From positions 1 to 33,496 of the forward strand of contig NZ_JQJI01000026.1 of the NCBI RefSeq assembly GCF_000745455.1: a stretch of DNA of 33,496 nucleotides, in the 5' to 3' direction. The notes beneath the pieces were generated by a model, which searched no databases, was not told where the DNA came from, and saw only the letters and a program-made list of their open reading frames with translations. The stretch comes from Mesoaciditoga lauensis cd-1655R = DSM 25116 (GTDB taxonomy: Bacteria; Thermotogota; Thermotogae; Mesoaciditogales; Mesoaciditogaceae). The translations under genes were made by a program, and so were the position numbers. Shown piece by piece: positions 178 to 33,176 of this stretch (its first letter is position 1; every line of letters starts with the position of its first letter).

Positions 178-351
178 ACAGATTCCTCCTTTTCATAAAC
201 CCGTTAGACGTCCGATCTTTTGAGGTCATTATTCTGAATCATGTTTGTGGAGGAAGCTAAATCCGAGACACAAGCTTACAGGCTTAAAAGATGTTCTAGC
301 TTTCTGCAGCAAACTTGATTCAGGCTTAAACCTACAATTATATTTTACACG
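178..351 (-). ncRNA. IS110 left-end non-coding region, candidate bridge RNA
   Basis: This stretch of about 174 nt separates the recombinase start from the point (352) where sequence matching repeat family A begins. IS110 elements carry a structured bridge RNA in this position; about 177 nt is the size known for IS621. A TATAAT box lies at 337-342 on the minus strand, just inside the element. That fits the known pattern in which the -10 is in the left end and the -35 is supplied by the right end in the circular form. A hand fold gives a stem AAGCTA/TAGCTT enclosing an internal loop with GAACATCTTTT on its left side, and an upper stem AAGC/GCTT. CATCTT also occurs in the flanking target. The position is strong evidence; the fold and guide assignment are tentative. 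Confidence 0.5.
337..342 (-). promoter_or_regulatory. -10 box for the IS110 non-coding RNA / recombinase
   Basis: TATAAT read on the minus strand, about 10 bp inside the element's left junction at 351/352. No good -35 is visible in the flanking repeat, consistent with a promoter completed only when the element ends are joined. This reading is inferred from family knowledge. Confidence 0.4.
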
Positions 352-433
352 GTAAGATGGGAAAAAGAGCGAATCCGTTCTGACAGGACTTCGAAGAAAT
401 TGCCTTTCGTAATGTTCACGCACAACATGAGTT
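352..433 (-). repeat. Repeat family A, copy A1 (left arm only, interrupted by the IS110 element)
   Basis: The reverse complement matches the left arm of the family A element at 6819-6902 nearly base for base: the terminal AACTCATGTTGTGCGTGAAC, then a CGAAG block, then CAGAACGGATTCGCTC and CATCTTAC. Identity stops abruptly after CATCTTAC, where the IS110 left end begins. The missing core and right arm should lie beyond the other end of the insertion, outside the window. From 434 to 514 nothing recognisable is seen before the next gene. Confidence 0.8.
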
Positions 434-4013: not shown

Positions 4014-4736
4014 ATGTGCGAAGTGATTAAAGTGATGAGAAAAACGGAAATTGTAAGGATAGATGAAAAAGGATTCAGAGAGATGGAAGACGTTGTTATC
4101 GAAGAAAAGATGATCGAAATACTCTTTAATGAAAATGACGTTGGTACGATTTCGTGCACGCCAAAAGAACTTAAATATCTGGCTGTTGGATACCTTTACT
4201 GTAAGGGACTCATAAGCGACGCGAATGTGGATATTAAGCTGTTTTCATCAAAGATAAAAGCGAAATCAAACGATTCTAAGAAAATTGGGTTAAACACAAA
4301 ACGAGAATGCAATGCGAACTGTGTGGATATAAAAACGATATCCACAAGCATGGCAGACTTACTTGGTTCTTCAGAAATTTTTTTAGAAACTGGGGGATGC
4401 CACATAGCCGGCGTTTTTGATTTGAAAGAAAGGAAATACGCTTACATTTGTGAAGATGTTTCGCGTCACAGCGCTGTTGAGAAGTGCATTGGCTTTTTGG
4501 TTTCTCATCCAAACAAAATAGAAATACCCGCCCTTTTTTTAACGGGGCGGGTGAATTTTGAAATCGTTCAAAAATGTGCCAAAATAGGCATTCGAATGAT
4601 CGTAACCAAAGCAGCCGTTACGGCTGGAGCAATTGAAGAATCGAAAAAACGTCGCATAACTCTTATTGGCTTTGCCCGTCAGGATAGGGCAAATGTTTAC
4701 TCTTGCTTCGAGAGGATTGAGACTTCCAAATCTTAG
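4014..4736 (+). CDS. fdhD: FdhD-family protein (sulfur carrier for formate dehydrogenase maturation)
   Basis: 240 aa, slightly short for FdhD (about 260-280). FdhD passes sulfur from a cysteine desulfurase to the Mo/W-bis-MGD cofactor of formate dehydrogenase. Recognisable blocks: CTPKELKYLAVGYLYCKGLI (48-67), TGGCH (126-130), EDVSRHSAVEKCIG (the usual RHNAxDK), LTGRVNFEIVQKCAKIGI, and GFARQDRANVYS near the end. The conserved CxxC sulfur-transfer motif is replaced by CNANC (C99, C103), a CxxxC spacing. No formate dehydrogenase gene is in the window. The start is uncertain: neither ATG at 4014 nor ATG at 4035 has a strong ribosome site. It could serve another molybdenum or tungsten enzyme. Confidence 0.82.
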   Translation: MCEVIKVMRKTEIVRIDEKGFREMEDVVIEEKMIEILFNENDVGTISCTPKELKYLAVGYLYCKGLISDANVDIKLFSSKIKAKSNDSKKIGLNTKRECNANCVDIKTISTSMADLLGSSEIFLETGGCHIAGVFDLKERKYAYICEDVSRHSAVEKCIGFLVSHPNKIEIPALFLTGRVNFEIVQKCAKIGIRMIVTKAAVTAGAIEESKKRRITLIGFARQDRANVYSCFERIETSKS

Positions 4737-4737
4737 A

Positions 4738-5009
4738 AACTCCTGTTGTGCGTGAACATTACGAAAGACAATTTCTTCGAAGTCCTGTCAGAACGGATTC
4801 GCTCCTTTTTTCCATCTTTTAGTCCAAAATATGAGGCACGCTCAGACACTCGTCCATGAGTGCTTCGCTTTCTCGGCACGTCCTGCGCCTTTCAACCTCA
4901 TATTTGTGAATTTTCAGATGGGAAGCTCATATGTTCTGACAAGTACTTCGAGGGTGAGATTTAATCCCTTTTCGAAATACTTTATAACATTAACGCACAA
5001 TGTGAGTTA
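4738..5009 (+). repeat. Repeat family A, copy A2 (full length)
   Basis: A complete 272-bp element. Outer ends are an imperfect inverted repeat (CTGTTGTGCGTGAAC against the reverse of the AACGCACAATGTGAGTT end). Inside are a second pair (CGAAGTCCTGTCAGAAC against GTTCTGACAAGTACTTCG) and a core whose arms include CAAAATATGAGG and CCTCATATTTG, enclosing hairpins with ACACTC/GAGTG. It starts 1 bp after the fdhD stop, and its right end contains the stop codon of the convergent gene, so it makes up the whole intergenic region. No protein coding is evident. Confidence 0.88.
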
Positions 5010-5546
5010 GAAATTTCCTTTTTTCGCGATTGAACCCAGCATTATAAGTTCAAATCCATCGAAAAGCAAACTTATGCCAACGATCAATCCAACCCAAAAT
5101 ATGGAACTGAAAGGCCATCCCATTATCATCCAAATTCCCAAGAATATGGACAACGTACCGTTTAAAATGGCAAGCAAGGCACTCAATTTCGAACCAGCCA
5201 TATCGAATGCGAAAGTGAAATTTGAAAAGGCATCGATCAACAGGTAGGCTGAAAACATAATACCCAGTGCCGCAATGCCAACTCCAGGGAAAATGAGCAT
5301 AAGCAAACCAGTTATAAAAAGCACAACGGATTTGAGCCAGGCACCATGAGATTTTTTGTAACTTTTAAAAGTGGCGTACGCTGTGAAAATGGAACTTGTA
5401 ACGAGAACGCTACCAAAGAAAACTGCCGCACTTAAACTCATTATTGGGGGGATTAAAATCCCAAGAGTTCCAACTATTACCATCAATATTCCAGCAACTA
5501 TTGAATGTTTTGAGAATTTCTGTAAGACTTCTTTTTCGAAAATCAT
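5007..5546 (-). CDS. DUF308/HdeD-family membrane protein
   Basis: 179 aa with about six hydrophobic segments arranged as paired helices (VAGILMVIVGTLGILIPPI, ALGIMFSAYLLIDAF, FLGIWMIMGWPFSSIFWVG and others), matching the HdeD/DUF308 family of small integral membrane proteins. HdeD is linked to acid resistance in enterobacteria; elsewhere the role is unknown. The ATG overlaps the arsC stop as ATGA and has GGAGGGATTGTC in front, so it is translated with arsC. Its TAA stop is supplied by the outer end of repeat copy A2. Confidence 0.85.
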   Translation of the reverse strand: MIFEKEVLQKFSKHSIVAGILMVIVGTLGILIPPIMSLSAAVFFGSVLVTSSIFTAYATFKSYKKSHGAWLKSVVLFITGLLMLIFPGVGIAALGIMFSAYLLIDAFSNFTFAFDMAGSKLSALLAILNGTLSIFLGIWMIMGWPFSSIFWVGLIVGISLLFDGFELIMLGSIAKKGNF

Positions 5547-6001
5547 GACAATCCCTCCTTTTCTACCTGAAATTCGGCATTTTCTTCACTTTCCTTTACG
5601 AAATTTTCTTCTATCCATTTGGTTATTTCATCTCTAACACGCCTGAAGGCATCCATTTTTTCTTTGTCTGAACCCACCACTTGTGCTGGATCTTCAAAAT
5701 TGTGGTGTATATGAACCTTCCCCGGAAAGAAAGGACACGTTTCGTTTGCATGATCACATACTGTGATGACGTAATCGAATATTTTTCCTTTGAATTCTTC
5801 TATGCTCTTTGAGCGGTGATTTGAAATGTCTATACCTATTTCTTCCATTGCCTTAATGGCGTATGGGTTGACGTTGGATGCAATGGTTCCAGCGCTTGCA
5901 ACTTCGTATTTGTCAGAATATCTGCTTCTCAAAAAGCCTTCTGCCATCTGAGATCTGGCGGAATTATGAGTACATATAAACAGAACCTTTTTCTTGTTCA
6001 T
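5543..6001 (-). CDS. arsC: Arsenate reductase, thioredoxin-coupled type
   Basis: 152 aa of the low-molecular-weight phosphatase fold. The P-loop is C10-THNSA-R16, and the two further redox cysteines of the pI258-type enzyme are present as C82 and C89 in VCDHANETCPFFPG. This matches the C10/C82/C89 triad that passes a disulfide to thioredoxin after reducing arsenate to arsenite. SAGT and the FEDPA block also fit the family. The start at 6001 follows AAAGGAG by 5 nt; an upstream in-frame ATG at 6034 lacks a ribosome site. No arsenite pump or ArsR gene is adjacent; the partner gene is the DUF308 membrane protein. Confidence 0.93.
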   Translation of the reverse strand: MNKKKVLFICTHNSARSQMAEGFLRSRYSDKYEVASAGTIASNVNPYAIKAMEEIGIDISNHRSKSIEEFKGKIFDYVITVCDHANETCPFFPGKVHIHHNFEDPAQVVGSDKEKMDAFRRVRDEITKWIEENFVKESEENAEFQVEKEGLS

Positions 6002-6056
6002 CTCTACTCCTTTCATCTTTAAACCATCTTTCAAAGTAGATCATAGCATACATATG

Positions 6057-6062
6057 CTATAA
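6057..6062 (+). promoter_or_regulatory. -10 box (TATAAT) for the riboswitch-cobO transcript
   Basis: TATAAT lies a few bases before the first paired elements of the cobalamin riboswitch, the right place for a transcript that begins with the aptamer. The -35 is not clear. Confidence 0.45.
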
Positions 6063-6065
6063 TTT

Positions 6066-6250
6066 CCCAGTCTACGAGGAACTCTGGTGAAAATCCAGGG
6101 CGGGCCCGCCACCGTGACCGGCTACGAAACTCATAACAGAGCCACTGGTGAAAACTGGGAAGGCATGAGGAGTAGGACAAACCGGAAGCCGGGAAACTCA
6201 TGACGCCACGCCTTCGTGGAGAGAGGCTGGTGAAAACCATTCTGCACTTT
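6066..6250 (+). promoter_or_regulatory. Cobalamin (adenosylcobalamin) riboswitch
   Basis: Conserved pieces of the B12 aptamer appear in order: GGAACTCTGGTGAAAATCC, then GGGCCCGCCACCGTGA (the CCCGCxACUGU block), GCCACTG...CTGGGAAGGC (P6), and the B12-box region GGAAGCCGGGAAAC. The last part, GGCTGGTGAAAACC, could close the element. The gene 50 nt downstream makes adenosylcobalamin, so feedback control by its product is expected. TGCCTCTT at about 6252 could pair with the AATGAGG ribosome site near 6286, suggesting translational control; this pairing is inferred by eye. Confidence 0.88.
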
Positions 6251-6300
6251 TTGCCTCTTTTCCATGATCGCCAAAAAATATTAAATGAGGTGATCTTCAA

Positions 6301-6813
6301 ATGGAAAAAGGATACGTTCAAGTTTACACTGGAAATGGAAAAGGAAAAACCACTGCTGCCATAGGGCTTAGCACGAGAGCCGCTGGGGCAGGATTGAAAG
6401 TTTCTTTCATTCAGTTTATGAAAGGTCAGTACACGAGCGAATTGGAAAGTTTTAAAAAGCTGGGAATAGAATTCTACCAGGGCGGAAGGCCAGAGTTCAT
6501 AATTGGTAAAGCGAAAAAGGAAGATATAGAGGCGGCAGAAAAAACTCTTGAATTGGCGAAAGAAAAGGCCACTAGTGGAAAATACGATGTGGTGGTGTTG
6601 GACGAAGTTAACGTTGCCATTTATCTAGGTCTTGTAAGCGAAGAAGACATCCTTAAACTCATAGAAGAAAAATCAGATGGAACCGAGCTTGTATTAACCG
6701 GAAGATATGCCACCCAAAAGATCATGGATAAAGCCGATTTAGTCACAGAAATGCGAGAAATAAAACATTATTTCAACGCTGGTGTGCAGGAAAGAGTTGG
6801 AATAGAGCGCTAA
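6301..6813 (+). CDS. cobO: Corrinoid adenosyltransferase, CobA/CobO type
   Basis: 170 aa, typical for cob(I)yrinic acid a,c-diamide adenosyltransferase, which moves the adenosyl group of ATP onto reduced corrinoid. The P-loop TGNGKGKTT is at 10-18, followed by VVLDEVNVAIYLGLV (Walker B-like) and the C-terminal LTGRYA...ADLVTEMREIKHYF...GVQERVGIER block of the family. Start: GAGGTGATC about 6 nt before the ATG. It stands alone with no other cobalamin genes nearby, so it may serve salvage of imported corrinoids. Controlled by the riboswitch just upstream. Its stop is 5 bp from repeat copy A3. Confidence 0.95.
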   Translation: MEKGYVQVYTGNGKGKTTAAIGLSTRAAGAGLKVSFIQFMKGQYTSELESFKKLGIEFYQGGRPEFIIGKAKKEDIEAAEKTLELAKEKATSGKYDVVVLDEVNVAIYLGLVSEEDILKLIEEKSDGTELVLTGRYATQKIMDKADLVTEMREIKHYFNAGVQERVGIER

Positions 6814-6818
6814 TTCTT

Positions 6819-7087
6819 AACTCATGTTGTGAGTGAACATTACGAAAGGCAATTTTTTCGAAGTCCTGCCAGAACGGATTCGCTCTTTTTTCCATCTTAC
6901 GATTCAAAATATGAGGCACGCTCAGACACTCGTCCGTGAGTGCTTCGCTTTCTCGGCACGTCCTGTGCCTCTCAACCTCATATTTTGAATCCTCCGCCGG
7001 AGAGCTCATATGTTCTGACAAGTACTTCGAGAGTGAAGTTTAATCCCTTTTTGAAATGCTTTGTAGCATTGGCACACAATATGAGCT
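6819..7087 (+). repeat. Repeat family A, copy A3 (full length, best-preserved)
   Basis: A 269-bp element with the same nested inverted repeats as A2: outer ends AACTCATGTTGTG and CACACAATATGAG, middle pair CGAAGTCCTGCCAGAAC / GTTCTGACAAGTACTTCG, and a core with perfect arms ATTCAAAATATGAGG / CCTCATATTTTGAAT around GAGGCAC/GTGCCTC and ACACTC/GAGTG hairpins. It starts 5 bp after the cobO stop and ends 1 bp before the stop of the convergent HD-GYP gene, so it is the entire intergenic region. Confidence 0.88.
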
Positions 7088-7088
7088 C

Positions 7089-9146
7089 TTAAGCCATTTT
7101 GCTTTCTTTTTGCATTTTTAAAAAGACTTCAACCACCGCGGGATCGAATTGCTTTCCCGCGTTTTTTTCGATTTCTTCCAGCGCCATTTCTTCACTCAAC
7201 GCTTTTCTGTACGGTCTATCGCTTGTCATGGCATCAAACGTATCACACACTGCCATTATTCTCGATTCTAACGGTATTTCTTCCCCTTTTAAACCGTCTG
7301 GATATCCCTTACCATCCCATCTTTCATGATGATGCCTTACGATCTTAGAAATGTTTTTCAACTGAGCTCCTTCTTCGATCAACTCAGCACCGATTATCGG
7401 GTGCTTTTTTATCTCGTTGTACTCCTCAGATGTGAGTTTTCCATTTTTGTTCAAAATTTCCAATGGAACGAAGATCTTTCCCACATCATGAAGCAATCCG
7501 GCTTGATGAATTTTTCTTTGAGCTTCTTCATCCATTCCCATCATTTTTGCTATGTTTCTCGAACACTCTGCCACACGCTCGGAATGGCCCTTGGTGTAGA
7601 CGTTGTACTTTTCAAGGGCTTTAACGAGTACTAGTGTAAGTCTCTCTTGAAGATCCCGCTGAAACCTCATGTATTTTCTCGACACGTAAAATGCCGTGGC
7701 TATTTTCGAGAAACTACTCAAAATTTCTACGTCATCCTGTGAAAAGGCGTATTCACTTCCCTTTGGAATGTCGAGGGACATGTATCCTAAAGTTTCATTC
7801 AAAAATTTCAACGGTGCGACCAACGATTCTTTTATGGGTTTTGTGGCTTTTTTCACCACTTCAAGTGCTTTTGAAGGAGCTTGTTCTTCATCTTCCTTCA
7901 AGATATCTTTTACGATCTGCACTTTGTCGAATCTGGCGAGTTCAAAGTCCACTTTTGGATCCTTTAAAATTTTCTCATCGTGTCCACGACATGCGACTAT
8001 TTTCCATTTTTTCTCATCAAAAATCCAGATGCTTCCATATTTAGCAACCGGGATCATTTCCAGAGCCCTGTTAAGCATTTGTTCGAGAAATTCTTCTCCC
8101 TTTATCTTTATCATGTCAAGCTGGGAAAGAGAAACTACCATCGCTCGAAATCTTTTACTGAGCTTTTCAAGGTCGGAGTAAGCGTTTTCCAATTCTTCAT
8201 TTATAGCCCTTATCTCCTCATTTGAAGCTGTAAGCTCTTCAATGGTTTCGCTTAATTCTTCATTTTTTCTTTCAAGCTCACTTGCTTCTTTTTTTACAAG
8301 TTTCCTCAAGATGATCACGTTGGCAGCCAACACCACAAAAACAAGAATACCGACGCCAAAAACGTAAAAAACCCATTTCGGGATGAAAGGCCTTGCGGAA
8401 GGGACATTTAAGTATTTAGAAATCGACTCGTTGAGAACGGAATTGTCGTTCTCTTTCATTTGCTTGATGTACCTGTCCACAACCGGTGCTATGATCTTTG
8501 CAACGTGGCTTTGTTTAGAAAAAGCAGCTTTTTCCTCAATAAGATAGAAAATCATTGATGTGCTCTGTAGTCTGTATTTTGAAGCGTTTTCAACGCCAAA
8601 AAATCTGTTTACAACGCCGGCGTCTATTGTTTTATCTTTAACAGCTTTGAAAATGTCGGGGTAGCTGTTAAATTCGACGAATTTGGTCTTAACATTGAGG
8701 TGCTCTAAAAAATATTTTATTCCCAGTGGCCCTCCATAGAAGATATCCGATTTTAAAACGCCGACGCGCTTGCCGTTCAAATCAAAAAAAGAGTCAATGG
8801 AACTTCCTTTATGTTTGTACACTTGAGCCCAATTTGACAAAAAAAATTCGTTGGTGAAATAGCAAAACGATTTTCTTTCCTTCGTTTCAGCTATGCCAAG
8901 AAGCATATCGATCTTACCGCTTTTCAGATCCGGCAAGAGCTTGGAAAAAGACTCGTAAACATATTCAACTTTCCAATTTTCCTTTTGCGCTATGAAATTC
9001 ATAACATTCACAAGTATGCCCTGAGCGCTTCCATTTTTATAGAAGGAAAGAGGTGGATTATCGTAAATGCCAACTTTGACGGTTAGAGAGAAGGAAAAAG
9101 CAAAAAAGGAAACCAACAGCACAAAAAATAGAAGCGTCTTTCTCAT
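7089..9146 (-). CDS. Periplasmic solute-binding sensor with GAF and HD-GYP output
   Basis: 685 aa. Signal peptide 1-20; a family-3 solute-binding (PBPb) domain at about 21-245 (VGIYDNPPLSFYKNG, LPDLKSGKIDMLLG, LNGKRVGVLKSD); one membrane helix at about 257-281; a coiled coil at 284-335; a GAF domain at about 345-490; HD-GYP at about 505-680. The HD pair is at 553-554 (LLHDVGK), the second metal cluster is HHHERWDGKGYPDG (605-618) with GYP at 614-616, and CDTFDAM follows, so c-di-GMP phosphodiesterase activity is expected. The domain order suggests that binding of an extracellular amino-acid-like ligand controls c-di-GMP breakdown. Start at 9146 follows AGAGAGGTGGGG; the longer upstream frame has no such site. 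Divergent from the chemoreceptor gene. Confidence 0.93.
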   Translation of the reverse strand: MRKTLLFFVLLVSFFAFSFSLTVKVGIYDNPPLSFYKNGSAQGILVNVMNFIAQKENWKVEYVYESFSKLLPDLKSGKIDMLLGIAETKERKSFCYFTNEFFLSNWAQVYKHKGSSIDSFFDLNGKRVGVLKSDIFYGGPLGIKYFLEHLNVKTKFVEFNSYPDIFKAVKDKTIDAGVVNRFFGVENASKYRLQSTSMIFYLIEEKAAFSKQSHVAKIIAPVVDRYIKQMKENDNSVLNESISKYLNVPSARPFIPKWVFYVFGVGILVFVVLAANVIILRKLVKKEASELERKNEELSETIEELTASNEEIRAINEELENAYSDLEKLSKRFRAMVVSLSQLDMIKIKGEEFLEQMLNRALEMIPVAKYGSIWIFDEKKWKIVACRGHDEKILKDPKVDFELARFDKVQIVKDILKEDEEQAPSKALEVVKKATKPIKESLVAPLKFLNETLGYMSLDIPKGSEYAFSQDDVEILSSFSKIATAFYVSRKYMRFQRDLQERLTLVLVKALEKYNVYTKGHSERVAECSRNIAKMMGMDEEAQRKIHQAGLLHDVGKIFVPLEILNKNGKLTSEEYNEIKKHPIIGAELIEEGAQLKNISKIVRHHHERWDGKGYPDGLKGEEIPLESRIMAVCDTFDAMTSDRPYRKALSEEMALEEIEKNAGKQFDPAVVEVFLKMQKESKMA

Positions 9147-9198
9147 TACCCCACCTCTCTTTGTGTTATGGATATGATAAGTAATAATTTCAATTGTA

Positions 9199-9271
9199 TA
9201 ACATATTGTTATTTGAGGTTTCAAAACATACAATGGTGTTATAATTCTATACGATGTTACAACATATTATT
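9199..9271. promoter_or_regulatory. Repeated AACATATTxTT motif in divergent promoter region
   Basis: AACATATTGTT (9200-9210, within the dyad TAACA-TAT-TGTTA at 9199-9211) and AACATATTATT (9261-9271) are two near-identical sites 61 bp apart between the HD-GYP and chemoreceptor genes. They could be binding sites for a shared regulator or just AT-rich promoter sequence. Confidence 0.3.
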
Positions 9272-12197: not shown

Positions 12198-12312
12198 AGG
12201 GGATCATCCTTTCATCATGAAATTTTCGATGATTATAGCACTTAAAATGAATTATATGATCGTTCCGACATGCATGAAAATAACAATTTCAATGGGTATG
12301 AAAATAGATTTT

Positions 12313-12669
12313 CTCACATTGTGCACCAATATTACAGAGCATTTCAAAAGGGGATTAAATCTCACCCTCGAAGTACTTGTCAGAACATATGAGCTCGCCA
12401 TCTGAAGATTCAAAATATGAGGTTGAGAGGCACAGGACGTGCCGAGAAAGCGAAGCACTCACGGATGAGTGTCTGAGCGTGCCTCATATTTTGGATTGTA
12501 AGATGGAAAAAAGAGCGAATTCGTTCTGACAGGACTTCGAAAAAATTGCCTTGACCGCTTGCAAAGCGGGTTTTAAATCAAAAAGTGTCGTCAAATGTGG
12601 CTCACATGTTCTCGTAGAGAAATTAATGCTTCTTGTAGTACCTTTCGTAATGTTCACGCACAACATGAG
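12313..12669 (-). repeat. Repeat family A, copy A4 (full length with long left arm)
   Basis: About 357 bp, inverted relative to A2 and A3. All parts are present: outer ends CTCACATTGTGC and CGCACAACATGAG, the middle pair, and the core with CAAAATATGAGG / CCTCATATTTTG arms. A 91-bp segment at 12551-12641 is added in the left arm between GCAAT and ACGAAAG of the usual sequence; a matching segment is found in A7. It occupies most of the 570-bp gap between the divergent MFS and amidohydrolase genes. The remaining 100 bp (12670-12769) should hold the amidohydrolase promoter, but no clear boxes were identified. Confidence 0.85.
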
Positions 12670-12769
12670 ATAAAATGATACATCTTTAAAGGGAATTTTC
12701 AGTATTTCTCATTTTGTTTGATGTGTGATAGCATATGTTTGACTACAAAGTTCAGAGGGGGGCGATTTT

Positions 12770-13876
12770 GTGGAAATAGCTAAAAGAGTTATAGAACACA
12801 GACGATGGCTTCATCAACATCCAGAGCTTGGTTTTGAAGAATATGAAACTTCGGACTACATCGCGGAACACCTAAAAAAGGCCGGCATACCTTTTAAAAG
12901 ACTTAAAACTGGTATCTTAGCCGATTTAAACGTGGGAGCCTCGCAAACTTTTGCGTTGCGTGCGGACATAGACGCCTTACCCATTCAAGAAGTTGGGGGA
13001 AGAGAATACGGTTCGAAGAATCCAGGTAAGATGCACGCTTGTGGTCACGATGCACATGCAGCCATGCTTTTAACAGCCGCTGAGTACATGGCACAGAATG
13101 CTCCGAAAAAGAACGTGAGATTCATTTTTCAGCCCGCTGAAGAAGGAAGAGGTGGAGGGGAGTTCATGGCAAACAACGGTGCCGTGGATGGAGTTGATAT
13201 GGTTTTTGGAATACATGTTTGGGCAAAAACGAGAAGCGGAGTTTTTGAAGTGAAAGAAGGTCCTCTCATGGCAAGCGCTTCTGAGTTTGAAATAGACATC
13301 CATGGAAAGGGTGGACATGCCGCATCTCCACACCTCAACGTAAACCCAATAGCAATTGGTGCCACGTTAACCAATGAGTTGTACAAAATTGGAATGCTTT
13401 ATGTGGATCCGATTCAAAACTCTCTTGTGAACGTTACCTCTTTCAATTCCGGTAACACCTTTAACGTCGTTCCCGAAGATGCCAAATTGTTGGGAACCAT
13501 AAGGACTTTTTCAGATGAAGCGAGAGAAGTCATTTTTCGAAAGATCAAAGAGCTTGAATCCATAGTTAAAGCCCTTGGCGGAGAAATGACAGCGGATTTA
13601 AAATCAGTAACTTATCCCGTCGTTAACTCAAAAGAGGCTGTGGTTGTGGCAAGAGAAGCTTTGAAGAGACTTGAATTTGAAACTGTTGAAGCTACCCCTA
13701 CAATGGGAGGGGAAGACTTTTCCTTTTACCTCAAAAAAGTGCCGGGAGCTTTTCTGTTCTTAGGGGTTAGAAATGAAAAGAAAGGCATAACTTCTCCACA
13801 TCATAGTCCCACTTTTGATGTTGATGAAGAAGTTTTGGAAAAAGGGGTAAGGTTCTTTATAGAACTTTGCAATTAA
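12770..13876 (+). CDS. M20-family amidohydrolase (N-acyl-amino acid/hippurate hydrolase-like)
   Basis: 368 aa zinc amidohydrolase of peptidase family M20D, which removes acyl groups from N-acyl amino acids or related amides. Motifs: RRWLHQHPELGFEE near the N-terminus, ADIDALP (66-72), the metal site MHACGHDAHAA with C91 and H93, EE at 124-125 in QPAEEGRGGG, H149 in GIHVWA, a dimerisation lid starting HGKGGHAASPH, GGEDFSFY, and HHSPTFDVDEE near the end. GTG start with GAGGGGGGCG in front. N-acetyl-diaminopimelate deacetylase is an alternative in this family; no lysine genes are adjacent to support it. Single gene. Confidence 0.93.
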   Translation: MEIAKRVIEHRRWLHQHPELGFEEYETSDYIAEHLKKAGIPFKRLKTGILADLNVGASQTFALRADIDALPIQEVGGREYGSKNPGKMHACGHDAHAAMLLTAAEYMAQNAPKKNVRFIFQPAEEGRGGGEFMANNGAVDGVDMVFGIHVWAKTRSGVFEVKEGPLMASASEFEIDIHGKGGHAASPHLNVNPIAIGATLTNELYKIGMLYVDPIQNSLVNVTSFNSGNTFNVVPEDAKLLGTIRTFSDEAREVIFRKIKELESIVKALGGEMTADLKSVTYPVVNSKEAVVVAREALKRLEFETVEATPTMGGEDFSFYLKKVPGAFLFLGVRNEKKGITSPHHSPTFDVDEEVLEKGVRFFIELCN

Positions 13877-13950
13877 AAAATTCAGTTCTCTGCGAATTTG
13901 TGTGGATAACATATTTCGAATAATAGCATCCTTTGACATTTTACTACCAC

Positions 13951-14156
13951 TTTCCAAGCGGTCAAGGTGATTTTTTTCGAAGTCCTGTCAGAACGGATTC
14001 GCTCTTTTACCCATCTTACGACTCAAAAAACGAGGCACGCTCAGACACTCATCCATGAGTGCTTCGCTTTCTCAACACATCCACGTGTTTCCCAACCTCG
14101 TTTTTATGAGTCTTCAGATGGAAAGCTCATATGTTCTGACAAGTACTTCGAGGGTA
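13951..14156 (+). repeat. Repeat family A, copy A5 (left end degraded)
   Basis: It begins inside the long-arm segment (TTTCCAAGCGGTCAAGG), then has the middle pair CGAAGTCCTGTCAGAAC / GTTCTGACAAGTACTTCG and a core of the AAAAAACGAGG / CCTCGTTTTTATGAG subtype. The outer terminal repeats are missing. Part of the 1031-bp gene-free gap at 13877-14908, which otherwise holds a hairpin (14267-14297), repeat B1 and a core-less A remnant. Confidence 0.8.
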
Positions 14157-14266
14157 CTTTTTTTACTTGATAACAAGGTATTTTAGGATGATTTTGTTCA
14201 GAACTGCAACAACAGACAGAATAGAGAATCGCATGTTTTACCCACACTAAACTAATGAGAACCAAA

Positions 14267-14297
14267 AATTCTCCCTTTGTAAATCAGAGGGAGAATT
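14267..14297 (+). terminator. Hairpin, possible terminator
   Basis: AATTCTCCCTTTG and CAGAGGGAGAATT form a 13-bp stem with one wobble pair and a 5-nt loop, followed by GATTTAATTT. The T-tract is weak and the nearest upstream gene ends almost 400 bp away, so it may instead be the edge of a mobile repeat. Confidence 0.35.
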
Positions 14298-14310: not shown

Positions 14311-14748
14311 CTCAAATTATGCAAGTTTGAGTATGAGAACCCTCAAACCTTTGAATATAGCTTAATCCTTCGGAATTATTCCCCCCTTCGTCGGCTTTGC
14401 CGACACTTCCCCCGCAAGCGGGGGAAGACTTCTTATATAAAATGACTTTGACGCCATTTCCCTCACAAATGGGGACAGACTTTTCAATTTGGAAAGTAGC
14501 TCTCTTGATTCTCCCATGTAAAATATAGTTGTTAAATGAAACACTCAGATAATGGAGAAGCTCGTCAGTCTCCTAGGCATAAAGCCTGTTGGGAGGTTTG
14601 GGTCTCTCCTCCCAAAACTGGGAGGAGTGGCAACGTAGTTGACGAGGAGGGTTCATCTTTCCTTTTGGTTTCAATGCCAACGTCTTTCCAATTGATTTCT
14701 TAATCTTCATGCACAACCTCATTCAATTTGAGTTGCATAAATTGAATT
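14311..14748 (+). repeat. Repeat family B, copy B1 (expanded)
   Basis: It begins CTCAAATTATGCAAG and AATATAGCTTAA, then GTCGGCTTTGCCGAC and a perfect GC-rich hairpin at 14406-14427 (CTTCCCCCGC / GCGGGGGAAG), and ends with TTCAATGCCAACGTCTTTCC, AATTGATTTCTTAATCTTC and TTCAATTTGAGTTGCATAAA. About 200 bp is inserted between the hairpin and the tail relative to B4. It includes a second hairpin CTCCTCCCA-AAAC-TGGGAGGAG near 14613-14634 with TTGACGAGGAGGG after it. This looks like stacked REP-type palindromes. Confidence 0.75.
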
Positions 14749-14749
14749 A

Positions 14750-14905
14750 CTAATCTTGTGCATGAACGTTACTAAGAGTATCAAATTTAGGATAACAGAA
14801 AAGTCAAAGACTCTAATCTAAGAAAGCTCATATGTTCTGACAGGGTACTTCGATAGTGAAATTTGATCCCTTTTTGATCAGTTTTGTCGCATCAACTCAT
14901 GCGAT
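14750..14905 (+). repeat. Repeat family A remnant without core (A5b)
   Basis: TTGTGCATGAACGTTACTAAG resembles the A left end, followed after about 50 bp by AAGCTCATATGTTCTGACA, GGTACTTCGATAGTGAAATT and TGATCCCTTTTTG, the A right arm. The hairpin core is missing. It also repeats 34 bp already present at the right end of A5, so the region is a broken and rejoined tandem. Confidence 0.6.
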
Positions 14906-20457: not shown

Positions 20458-21151
20458 GAAACTCACAGTGTACAGGAAAGTAACAAATTTAGTTTTGCGG
20501 AAAAAAGCGATCATTGAAAATATTTATCGAAACACATTCCGGCACGAATTCACTCTTTTATCCATCTTACGACTCAAAAAACGAGGCACGCTCAGACACT
20601 CATCCATGAGTGCTTCGCTTTTTCAACACATCCGTGTGTTTTCCAACCTCGTTTTTATGAGTCTCCAGATGGAGAGTTCATAAGTGCCGGCAAGTGTTTC
20701 GATAAAGGGAGAGGGAGAGGGAGAAGAAAAAAGATCTGTTATTTTACACCTTGTATGGCGTCTTCATATGTTTTGACGAAAACTTCAAAAAGGGAGAAGA
20801 GAAAGGCGAAGAAAAGCATGATTAATTCGAAACACTCGCCAACACGAATTCACTCTTTTATCCATCTTACGACTCAAAAAACGAGGCACGCTCAGACACT
20901 CATCCATGAGTGCTTCGCTTTTTCAACACGTCCGTGTGTTTTCCAACCTCGTTTTATGAGTCTCCAGATGGTGAGTTCATAGGTGCTGGCACGTGTTTCG
21001 AAAGAAAAAGGGAGAAACATATGTTTTGACAGAAATTTCAAAAAAGGAGAGAAAGGCAAAGAAAAGTGTTGGATGATCGCTGTAAATAGCCATGAATGTT
21101 GGTTTATAGATGATATGTTAATTACTTAGCACTTAGCACAGCGTGAGTTAG
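20458..21151 (+). repeat. Compound family A element: two compact cores between distant terminal repeats
   Basis: Two cores of the compact subtype lie about 300 bp apart: 20526-20704 and 20826-21002. Each is bounded by TCGAAACAC and GTGTTTCGA, with inner AAAAAACGAGG / CCTCGTTTT arms and an ACACTC/GAGTG hairpin. Each core is followed by purine-rich DNA and a CATATGTTTTGAC...AAAGGC tail, making a tandem duplication. Weak terminal repeats are seen at both ends: AACTCACAGTGTAC (about 20460) and CACAGCGTGAGTTAG (about 21138). This fills most of the divergent gap between the rseC-like and RNase HI genes. No coding sequence or other RNA gene is seen at 20295-21180. Confidence 0.75.
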
Positions 21152-26161: not shown

Positions 26162-26345
26162 TGTGCATCAAGTTTAAGAAATCAATTGGACAAAGTCATC
26201 GGTATTGAAAGTCAAAATGGGAAATGAAGCCGCTGTGTTATTTGCCCCTATTTATGAGGAAAGTCAACAGAGTCATTTCTATGTAATATAGTCTTCCCCC
26301 CACTCGTGGGGGAAGTGTCGACGGAGTCGACGAAGGGGGAATCCC
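26162..26345 (-). repeat. Repeat family B, copy B2 (degraded)
   Basis: On the minus strand the order matches B4: hairpin CTTCCCCC...GGGGGAAG near 26292-26312, GTCGACGGAGTCGAC, and the AAGAAATCAATTGGAC / CGGTATTGAAA tail near 26176-26205. It fills the 245-bp gap between fliD and the racemase gene, and its GC-rich hairpin could end fliD transcription. Confidence 0.7.
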
Positions 26346-27098: not shown

Positions 27099-27104
27099 TC
27101 TTAT

Positions 27105-27319
27105 CTCATGTTGTGCGTGAACATTACGAAAAGTATTACAAGAGACATTATTACAAAAATTTTCTACGAAAACATATAAGCACCATTTGACAACACTTTT
27201 TGATTTAAAACCCGCTTTCCAAGCGGTCAAAGCAATTTTTTCGAAGTCCTGTCAGAACGGATTCGCTCTTCTTTCCGTCTTCCTAATTCAAAATATGAGG
27301 CACGCTCAGACACTCGTCT
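27105..27319 (+). repeat. Repeat family A, copy A7 (long left arm, truncated in core)
   Basis: Terminal CTCATGTTGTGCGTGAACATTACGAA, then the roughly 99-bp long-arm segment (27132-27230) matching the one in A4, then the middle block and the start of the core (CAAAATATGAGGCACGCTC). It stops in the middle of the core at about 27319, where repeat B3 begins. The other half is not found downstream. Confidence 0.8.
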
Positions 27320-27580
27320 TATGGCAAGTTTGAATATAGCTTAATTCTTTGAAATTATTTCCCCCTTTGTCGGCTTCGCCGACACTTCCCCCACAAATGG
27401 GGGCAGACTTCTTATATAAAAATGGCTTCGCCGACGCTTCCCCCGCTTGCGGGGACAGAATATCCATAAAATGACGAGGAGGGTTCATCTTTCCTTTTGA
27501 TTTCAATGCCAACAGCTTTCCAATTGATTTCTTAATCTTCACCCATCCCTCATTCAATTTGAGTTGCATAAAGCGAACAA
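27320..27580 (+). repeat. Repeat family B, copy B3
   Basis: AATATAGCTTAATTC, GTCGGCTTCGCCGAC with CTTCCCCCAC, a second GGCTTCGCCGACGCTTCCCC unit, then GACGAGGAGGGTTCATC and the TTCAATGCCAACAGCTTTCC / GAGTTGCATAAA tail. The doubled hairpin unit indicates amplification of the palindromic part. With A7 it makes up the gap at 27099-27605. Confidence 0.75.
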
Positions 27581-27605
27581 CGTACATTCAGCATACCTGC
27601 GGATG

Positions 27606-32937: not shown

Positions 32938-33176
32938 CTAAACTCTCAATTTATGCAACTCAGATTGAATGAGGTTGTGTGTGAAGATTAAGAAATCAAT
33001 TGGAAAGTTGTCGGCATTGAAACCCAAAGGAAAGATGAACCCTCCTTGTCATTTTATGGATATTCTGCCCCCGCAAGCGGGGGAAGTGGTGGCGGAGCCG
33101 ACATAGGGGGGAGAATAATTTCAAATGATTTAAGCTATATTCAAAGGTTTGATGCTCAAATTATGCAAGTCGAGTT
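32938..33176 (-). repeat. Repeat family B, copy B4 (most regular)
   Basis: Read on the minus strand: ACTTGCATAATTTGAGCATC, AATATAGCTTAAATC, CGGCTCCGCC, hairpin CTTCCCCCGC/GCGGGGGC, ATCCATAAAATGACAAGGAG, TTCAATGCCGACAACTTTCC, and a TTCAATCTGAGTTGCATAAA end. About 239 bp. It lies in the 500-bp gap between the ferredoxin gene and the putative transposase; 32780-32935 is AT-rich and should hold the ferredoxin promoter. Confidence 0.75.

Follow-up and report, generated by a model that had tools for sequence, protein, structure and literature searches.

Miniature transposons of Mesoaciditoga lauensis carry a TwoAYGGAY-like two-hairpin module with paired predicted CsrA-binding loops

Family A copies in the window and in the genome

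The stretch of DNA analyzed here (the window; 33,496 nucleotides, positions 1 to 33,496 of contig NZ_JQJI01000026.1 of Mesoaciditoga lauensis cd-1655R = DSM 25116) contains eight copies or fragments of a repeat termed family A. Cyclic-di-GMP genes at 515-2173 (GGDEF-EAL) and 7089-9233 (HD-GYP-type with a solute-binding domain) adjoin the copies A1 and A3, and a cobalamin riboswitch (RF00174, 71 bits; 6076-6199) is located upstream of a cobO-type adenosyltransferase gene (6301-6813). The named relatives of this cobO gene place the host in the Mesoaciditogaceae, the best of them being from a Mesoaciditoga metagenome genome (88% protein identity). The features of family A are as follows.

340..433, + strand: A1, partial copy with one terminal repeat and outer arm, without the core (by repeat comparison)
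4739..5007, − strand (the strand with the GGA loops): A2, short-form miniature transposon, 269 bp, ends ACTCC...TGAGT, duplication TAGAA at 4734-4738 and 5008-5012
4823..4908, − strand: A2 inner module, stem P3 and two GGA hairpins (R1 covariance model, 102.1 bits)
4875..4889, − strand: A2 hairpin P4, stem GGCGC/GTGCC, pentaloop AGGAC (from sequence and structure)
4840..4868, − strand: A2 hairpin P5, GC + tandem GA + AG, bulged U, 5 bp, hexaloop ATGGAC (from sequence, pair counts and folds)
6820..7086, − strand: A3, short-form miniature transposon, ends ACTCA...TGAGC, duplication TCTTA at 6815-6819 and 7087-7091
6903..6988, − strand: A3 inner two-hairpin GGA module (R1, 109.4 bits)
12312..12670, + strand: long-form copy (~360 bp), terminal repeats at both ends (core 12410-12495, + strand, 107.5 bits)
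13884..14263, − strand: type-2 miniature transposon, 380 bp, ends AGTTCTC...GAGAACC, same module inside (core 14022-14108, − strand, 99 bits)
13876-13883 and 14264-14271: 8-bp duplication AAAAATTC around the type-2 element
20524..20704, − strand: type-3 context, core II module, first member of a tandem pair, AYGGAY loops in both hairpins (R1 20573-20659, 100.3 bits)
20827..21003, − strand: type-3 context, core II module, second member of the tandem pair (R1 20873-20959, 99.0 bits)
27104..27318, − strand: long-form copy broken off inside the core, CCCCC-hairpin repeat directly after it

The initial annotation had described nested inverted repeats around a two-hairpin core, and this architecture is indeed present at A2 and A3. 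Both are non-coding, as had been claimed, apart from an 82-aa ORF with a TTG start that overlaps A3; A2 is overlapped by no ORF of at least 80 aa beyond its last base. The high copy number in both orientations was borne out as well, and the copies are not confined to the window: the 21-base core (up to three mismatches) had 94 forward and 95 reverse matches, 189 altogether, in the 2.17-Mb genome, the reversed pattern used as a control had none, and the core is also present in sister genera. Copy number among the host and sister genomes is very unequal. In 824 kb of the genome, 99 full-length cores were found and divided by sequence into three classes (core I, core II, and core III); family A copies are not mutually independent.

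Transposon shells around a separable core

A2 and A3 are non-autonomous miniature transposons (MITEs), one of the forms initially considered for them. Their shell (shell 1) has the ends ACTCA...TGAGT and occurs in a long (~365 bp) and a short (~268 bp) form. Within 824 kb of the genome, 39 paired inward ends were found at a spacing of 255-470 bp, 14 of which are flanked by exact 5-bp target duplications, compared with 0.18 expected from mismatched end pairings. For one copy (L093:7368-7731), the corresponding site in the genome G012 of the same genus is cleanly empty and holds TAAAA only once. Of a second shell, with the ends GTTCTC...GAGAAC, ten copies were found; all of them measure 378-383 bp, and three have 8-9-bp duplications by inspection (including the one at 13884-14263). 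The third context consists of core II in tandem arrays, often together with a core III remnant. Furthermore, three elements have shell-1-like ends but no core, one of them (L092:18743-19051) with a plausible target duplication, and a related genome has kept both ends at the A2 site while the core is missing. Because the core resides in two MITE shells and in tandem arrays, and because elements without it exist, it is cargo that is separable from the ends. Thus, family A is a real repeat, but not the single element it was first taken for; it is modular, and the terminal repeat originally singled out belongs to one of several shells round a shared core.

A full-length relative sharing this terminal repeat and carrying a transposase, as had been envisaged, was not found: no transposase adjoins the shell-1 ends examined, including terminal repeats in relatives, and no repeated segment longer than 600 bp is present in 824 kb of the genome. 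A2 and A3 resemble other bacterial MITEs in being short and non-coding, with terminal inverted repeats and target duplications and without a transposase of their own, but differ from the usual ones in carrying a conserved RNA module which they have in common with an unrelated MITE shell, and in that no autonomous parent was found. The earlier suggestion of a large REPIN-like element was dropped. Like REP/REPIN sequences, family A consists of high-copy extragenic palindromes; unlike them, it has long terminal repeats and 5-bp duplications, and PF01797 (Y1/RAYT transposase) is absent from the 99.96% complete genome, whereas control genomes were positive. A viral origin was likewise set aside, a single motif scan over viral contigs having given 0 matches.

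Hairpins with CCCCCGCAAGCGGGGG and GTCGGCTTTGCCGAC characterize another repeat family, which is present at 14343-14763, 26297-26341, 27329-27594, and 32946-33152 of the window, with further copies at L075:2648-2940 and L093:11048-11505. As some of its copies are bounded by family-A-like ends, it is probably mobilized by the same enzyme.

Fold and relatives of the inner module

When folded as RNA, the minus strand of A2 reached −101 kcal/mol (z −7.5) and the plus strand −84.5 kcal/mol (z −4.7); on either strand, none of 200 shuffles was as stable. The G-strand, which is complementary to A2 as printed, is much more stable than the other one. The separable inner module within the elements comprises ~175 bp. 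Along the G-strand, one side of stem P3 is followed by TTGRGA, hairpin P4 with the loop A(N)GGA(Y), and GAGAAA; then come a helix of GC, tandem GA and AG, a bulged U, five pairs, an AYGGAY loop, a tail, and the other side of P3. The tandem-GA helix is GCGAAG/CUGAGC with the bulged U, and a compensatory pair (49-68) lies next to the bulge. Core II has two hexaloops, and core I combines AGGAC with AYGGAY. The junction linkers are conserved as strongly as the GGA itself, which is explained in part by the tandem-GA helix and only in part by CsrA.

The proposal that pairing is conserved was examined by aligning copies, and it held: 12 pairs have changed on both sides among 18 sequences from seven genomes, 13 when the tandem-GA helix is added, and the covariation score was reached by none of 500 shuffles and the signal lost when the partners were slid, although the shuffles leave sequence kinship in place, so that the weight lies on the effect size and on distant relatives. 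Such relatives exist. Of 103 Thermotogota genomes searched with a covariance model (with rough E-values), 10 contain the module; in other families, GGA is present in both loops in G042 and G043 and in one loop in G052. In G004, which belongs to another family, the arms are unrelated, yet the layout is the same: one loop is AGGAT, the other is either AAGGAA or ACGGAA, and the bulged U keeps its position. The copies L303-L309 of this genome are a multi-copy nested inverted repeat whose long outer arms (e.g., TAGGAGGCATATCTCGATGT) enclose two GGA hairpins. For the inner module, then, the initial idea of a highly structured RNA agrees with the covariation, the stability of one strand, and partial similarity to an Rfam family.

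This family is TwoAYGGAY (RF01731). At relaxed thresholds, the two core II copies of the window matched it with 27.7 bits (20827..21003) and 26.1 bits (20524..20704), the threshold being 43. Other searches were negative: at curated thresholds, the Rfam scan of the window returned the cobalamin riboswitch only, A3 alone had no Rfam match at E ≤ 5, and RF01731 had no match in the host genome at E ≤ 0.01. In G043 (L205; the family name Petrotogaceae was inferred for this genome), the R1 model and RF01731 find the same place, the latter with 52.2 bits, which is above the threshold. RF01731 is multi-copy in the genus of G043, and only Petrotogaceae relatives reached the gathering threshold. TwoAYGGAY was first reported from human gut, γ-Proteobacteria, and Clostridiales as a probable RNA of unknown function that was “probably not” cis-regulatory (PMC2864571); later, it was proposed to be a CsrA-binding RNA, tandem-GAs and matches to the CsrA motif being reported for it (PMC4333381). 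Like the module described here, it has two adjacent hairpins with AYGGAY loops, a tandem GA in the second hairpin, and an outer closing stem. Unlike it, the window copies score only 26-28 bits, one loop is often a 5-nt AGGAY, and the module of Mesoaciditogaceae rides in MITEs in ~190 copies, which differs from TwoAYGGAY as reported. We thus term the module TwoAYGGAY-like; it is a distant relative, since the window copies miss the RF01731 threshold.

In G038, eight RF01731 copies (L229, L233, L238, L240, L244, L248, L252, L255) lie in a repeat with the conserved ends CAGACTGTTGAC.../...CTACAAACTG, the left end also being written CAGACTGTTGACAAAATAAAATAT; several copies have the same terminator-like hairpin on both sides, as if duplicated at insertion. 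With these conserved ends, a mobile context of the RNA may be general. In several copies from G013, G014, and a metagenome genome of Mesoaciditogaceae (L054, L184, L190, L195, L102:192-277, L294-L299), a different hairpin, which ends in ACGACCAAAGCGATAGCTGCGA, has taken the place of one side of P3; the module thus recombines with other repeats.

GGA loops, predicted CsrA binding, and alternative readings

CsrA/RsmE recognizes the sequence A(N)GGA(N) when it is presented in a loop with a closing C-G pair, and the repeats of CsrB read CAGGA(U/A/C)G (PMC7652899). The P4 loop of core I with its closing pair is CAGGACG, and A(N)GGA(Y) loops closed by C-G are present in core I, in core II, in four sister genomes, and in the other families. 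The genome of M. lauensis encodes CsrA directly behind fliW (motifs MLVLRRK and LREEL; PF02599, 3.2e-21). CsrA was found in nine of the 10 module-bearing genomes, the remaining one being G013, which has many module copies and is 87% complete. As CsrA is widespread among Thermotogota (it is present in 78 of the 103 genomes), its co-occurrence with the module is only permissive.

Both GGAs are intact in 46 of 50 core I copies and 37 of 39 core II copies, and one GGA is lost in six of 10 core III copies. In core I and core II, GGA was changed in eight of 533 cells (0.015 per site), each change being confined to one copy, compared with 633 of 8,602 (0.074) in the outer arms and 91 of 354 (0.257) at the Y sites beside GGA, the variation of which may be inflated by deamination as these sites adjoin G. 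When single-copy mutations are considered, however, GGA (1.5%) does not stand out from arm sites (1.05%), i.e., it mutates at the background rate. That GGA loss in core I and core II is never shared but occurs in single copies at the background rate suggests that selection acts on the spreading lineages. Among recent variants, strand-specific selection was considered and rejected: an apparent excess of G-U over A-C vanished with a strand-neutral pair set. The lack of such a pairing bias, together with the missing core at the related A2 site, suggests little selection on resident copies.

On balance, we consider it probable, if by no means certain, that these MITEs carry a TwoAYGGAY-kind RNA presenting paired predicted CsrA-binding loops and acting as a selfish, transposon-borne CsrA decoy; it is the mutation pattern at GGA that would fit such behavior. 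The GGA strand would be transcribed and one CsrA dimer would clamp both loops. The clamped module might then sequester CsrA or change how stable the host transcript is and how it is translated; it might also protect the RNA or affect expression of the transposase in a lost autonomous parent. In either case, the GGA loops would be needed for the spread of the element rather than be kept site by site for the host.

The same mutation pattern, with GGA and linkers kept in spreading lineages and GGA not kept in resident copies, would also be expected of a cis signal. The module might thus act at the DNA level in transposition, its hairpins, GGA included, being read on single-stranded DNA or a cruciform (which nested palindromes favor) by a transposase or host factors. 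We regard this as unlikely, given that one module is shared by two shells with different ends and duplications (5 versus ~8 bp), that elements with the same ends and, at L092:18743-19051, a plausible target duplication lack the core, as does the A2 site of the related genome with both its ends, and that a Y1 transposase is absent from the genome.

Gene context bears on a further reading. A role as terminators or mRNA 3′-end stabilizers has been proposed for REP/BIME sequences, and the repeats could likewise be structured filler of this kind, with GGA loops inherited without binding CsrA. Most copies are intergenic, A2 and A3 being located between convergent stop codons. Among 63 full copies of the host genome in co-directional gaps (ORFs of 100 aa or more being counted as genes), core II and core III have their GGA strand antisense to the flanking genes at 31:5, and their C-strand accordingly sense, whereas for core I the ratio of antisense to sense is 14:13; the antisense group overall is located shortly after the upstream gene. 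GC skew gave no sign of such a strand bias in convergent or divergent gaps. The antisense preference is compatible with poor tolerance of GGA hairpins within mRNAs or with biased insertion, and as the GGA strand is mostly antisense outside core I, the module is a poor fit to a 5′-UTR regulator. Nevertheless, filler seems to us a less likely account still, because co-directional, divergent, and convergent gaps all hold copies (63/22/21) in proportions near the make-up of all 150-3000-bp gaps (152/50/42), and because GGA is kept across lineages with almost wholly different stems and arms, which filler would not need.

Finally, a sponge or buffer that benefits the host, its copies being read through and jointly titrating CsrA beside FliW, would make use of ~190 copies with two sites each, of the tandem arrays lining up several GGA hairpins, and of the intact fliW-csrA, but is improbable considering that GGA in resident copies decays at the background rate, that the orthologous A2 site of a related genome lacks the core, and that copy number among related genomes is very unequal. 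Possibly, the host has recruited the decoy as a CsrA buffer dispersed over its genome.

As a CsrA decoy, the module would have its closest functional counterparts in the sRNAs CsrB and RsmZ, which also present paired GGA hairpin loops on one strand; the tandem arrays of the module line up several. In contrast to the one dedicated gene of such an sRNA, the module, known here from its sequence, exists as many dispersed mobile copies. The setting differs as well, since the Mesoaciditoga host uses fliW-csrA; whether any species employs FliW together with sRNAs has yet to be established (PMC7652899). The literature on CsrA with MITEs or repeats, and on MITEs in Thermotoga, gave no earlier description of such an arrangement.

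The findings suggest that mobile DNA may spread a regulator-binding RNA across a genome. More tentatively, and with considerable doubt, we propose that several unrelated MITEs of the Thermotogota independently took up a CsrA-binding two-hairpin RNA because tapping CsrA aids their spread, which would make TwoAYGGAY the cargo of mobile elements. If so, genomes would be seeded with hundreds of regulator-binding sites, and bacteria would offer an example in which mobile DNA rewires regulation at the level of RNA, via sites for a global post-transcriptional regulator. For the orphan RNA TwoAYGGAY, family A adds a further lineage and a mobile setting and supplies natural test cases in abundance, and the module bears on a question of the CsrA field, namely whether organisms using FliW also have RNA antagonists (PMC7652899).
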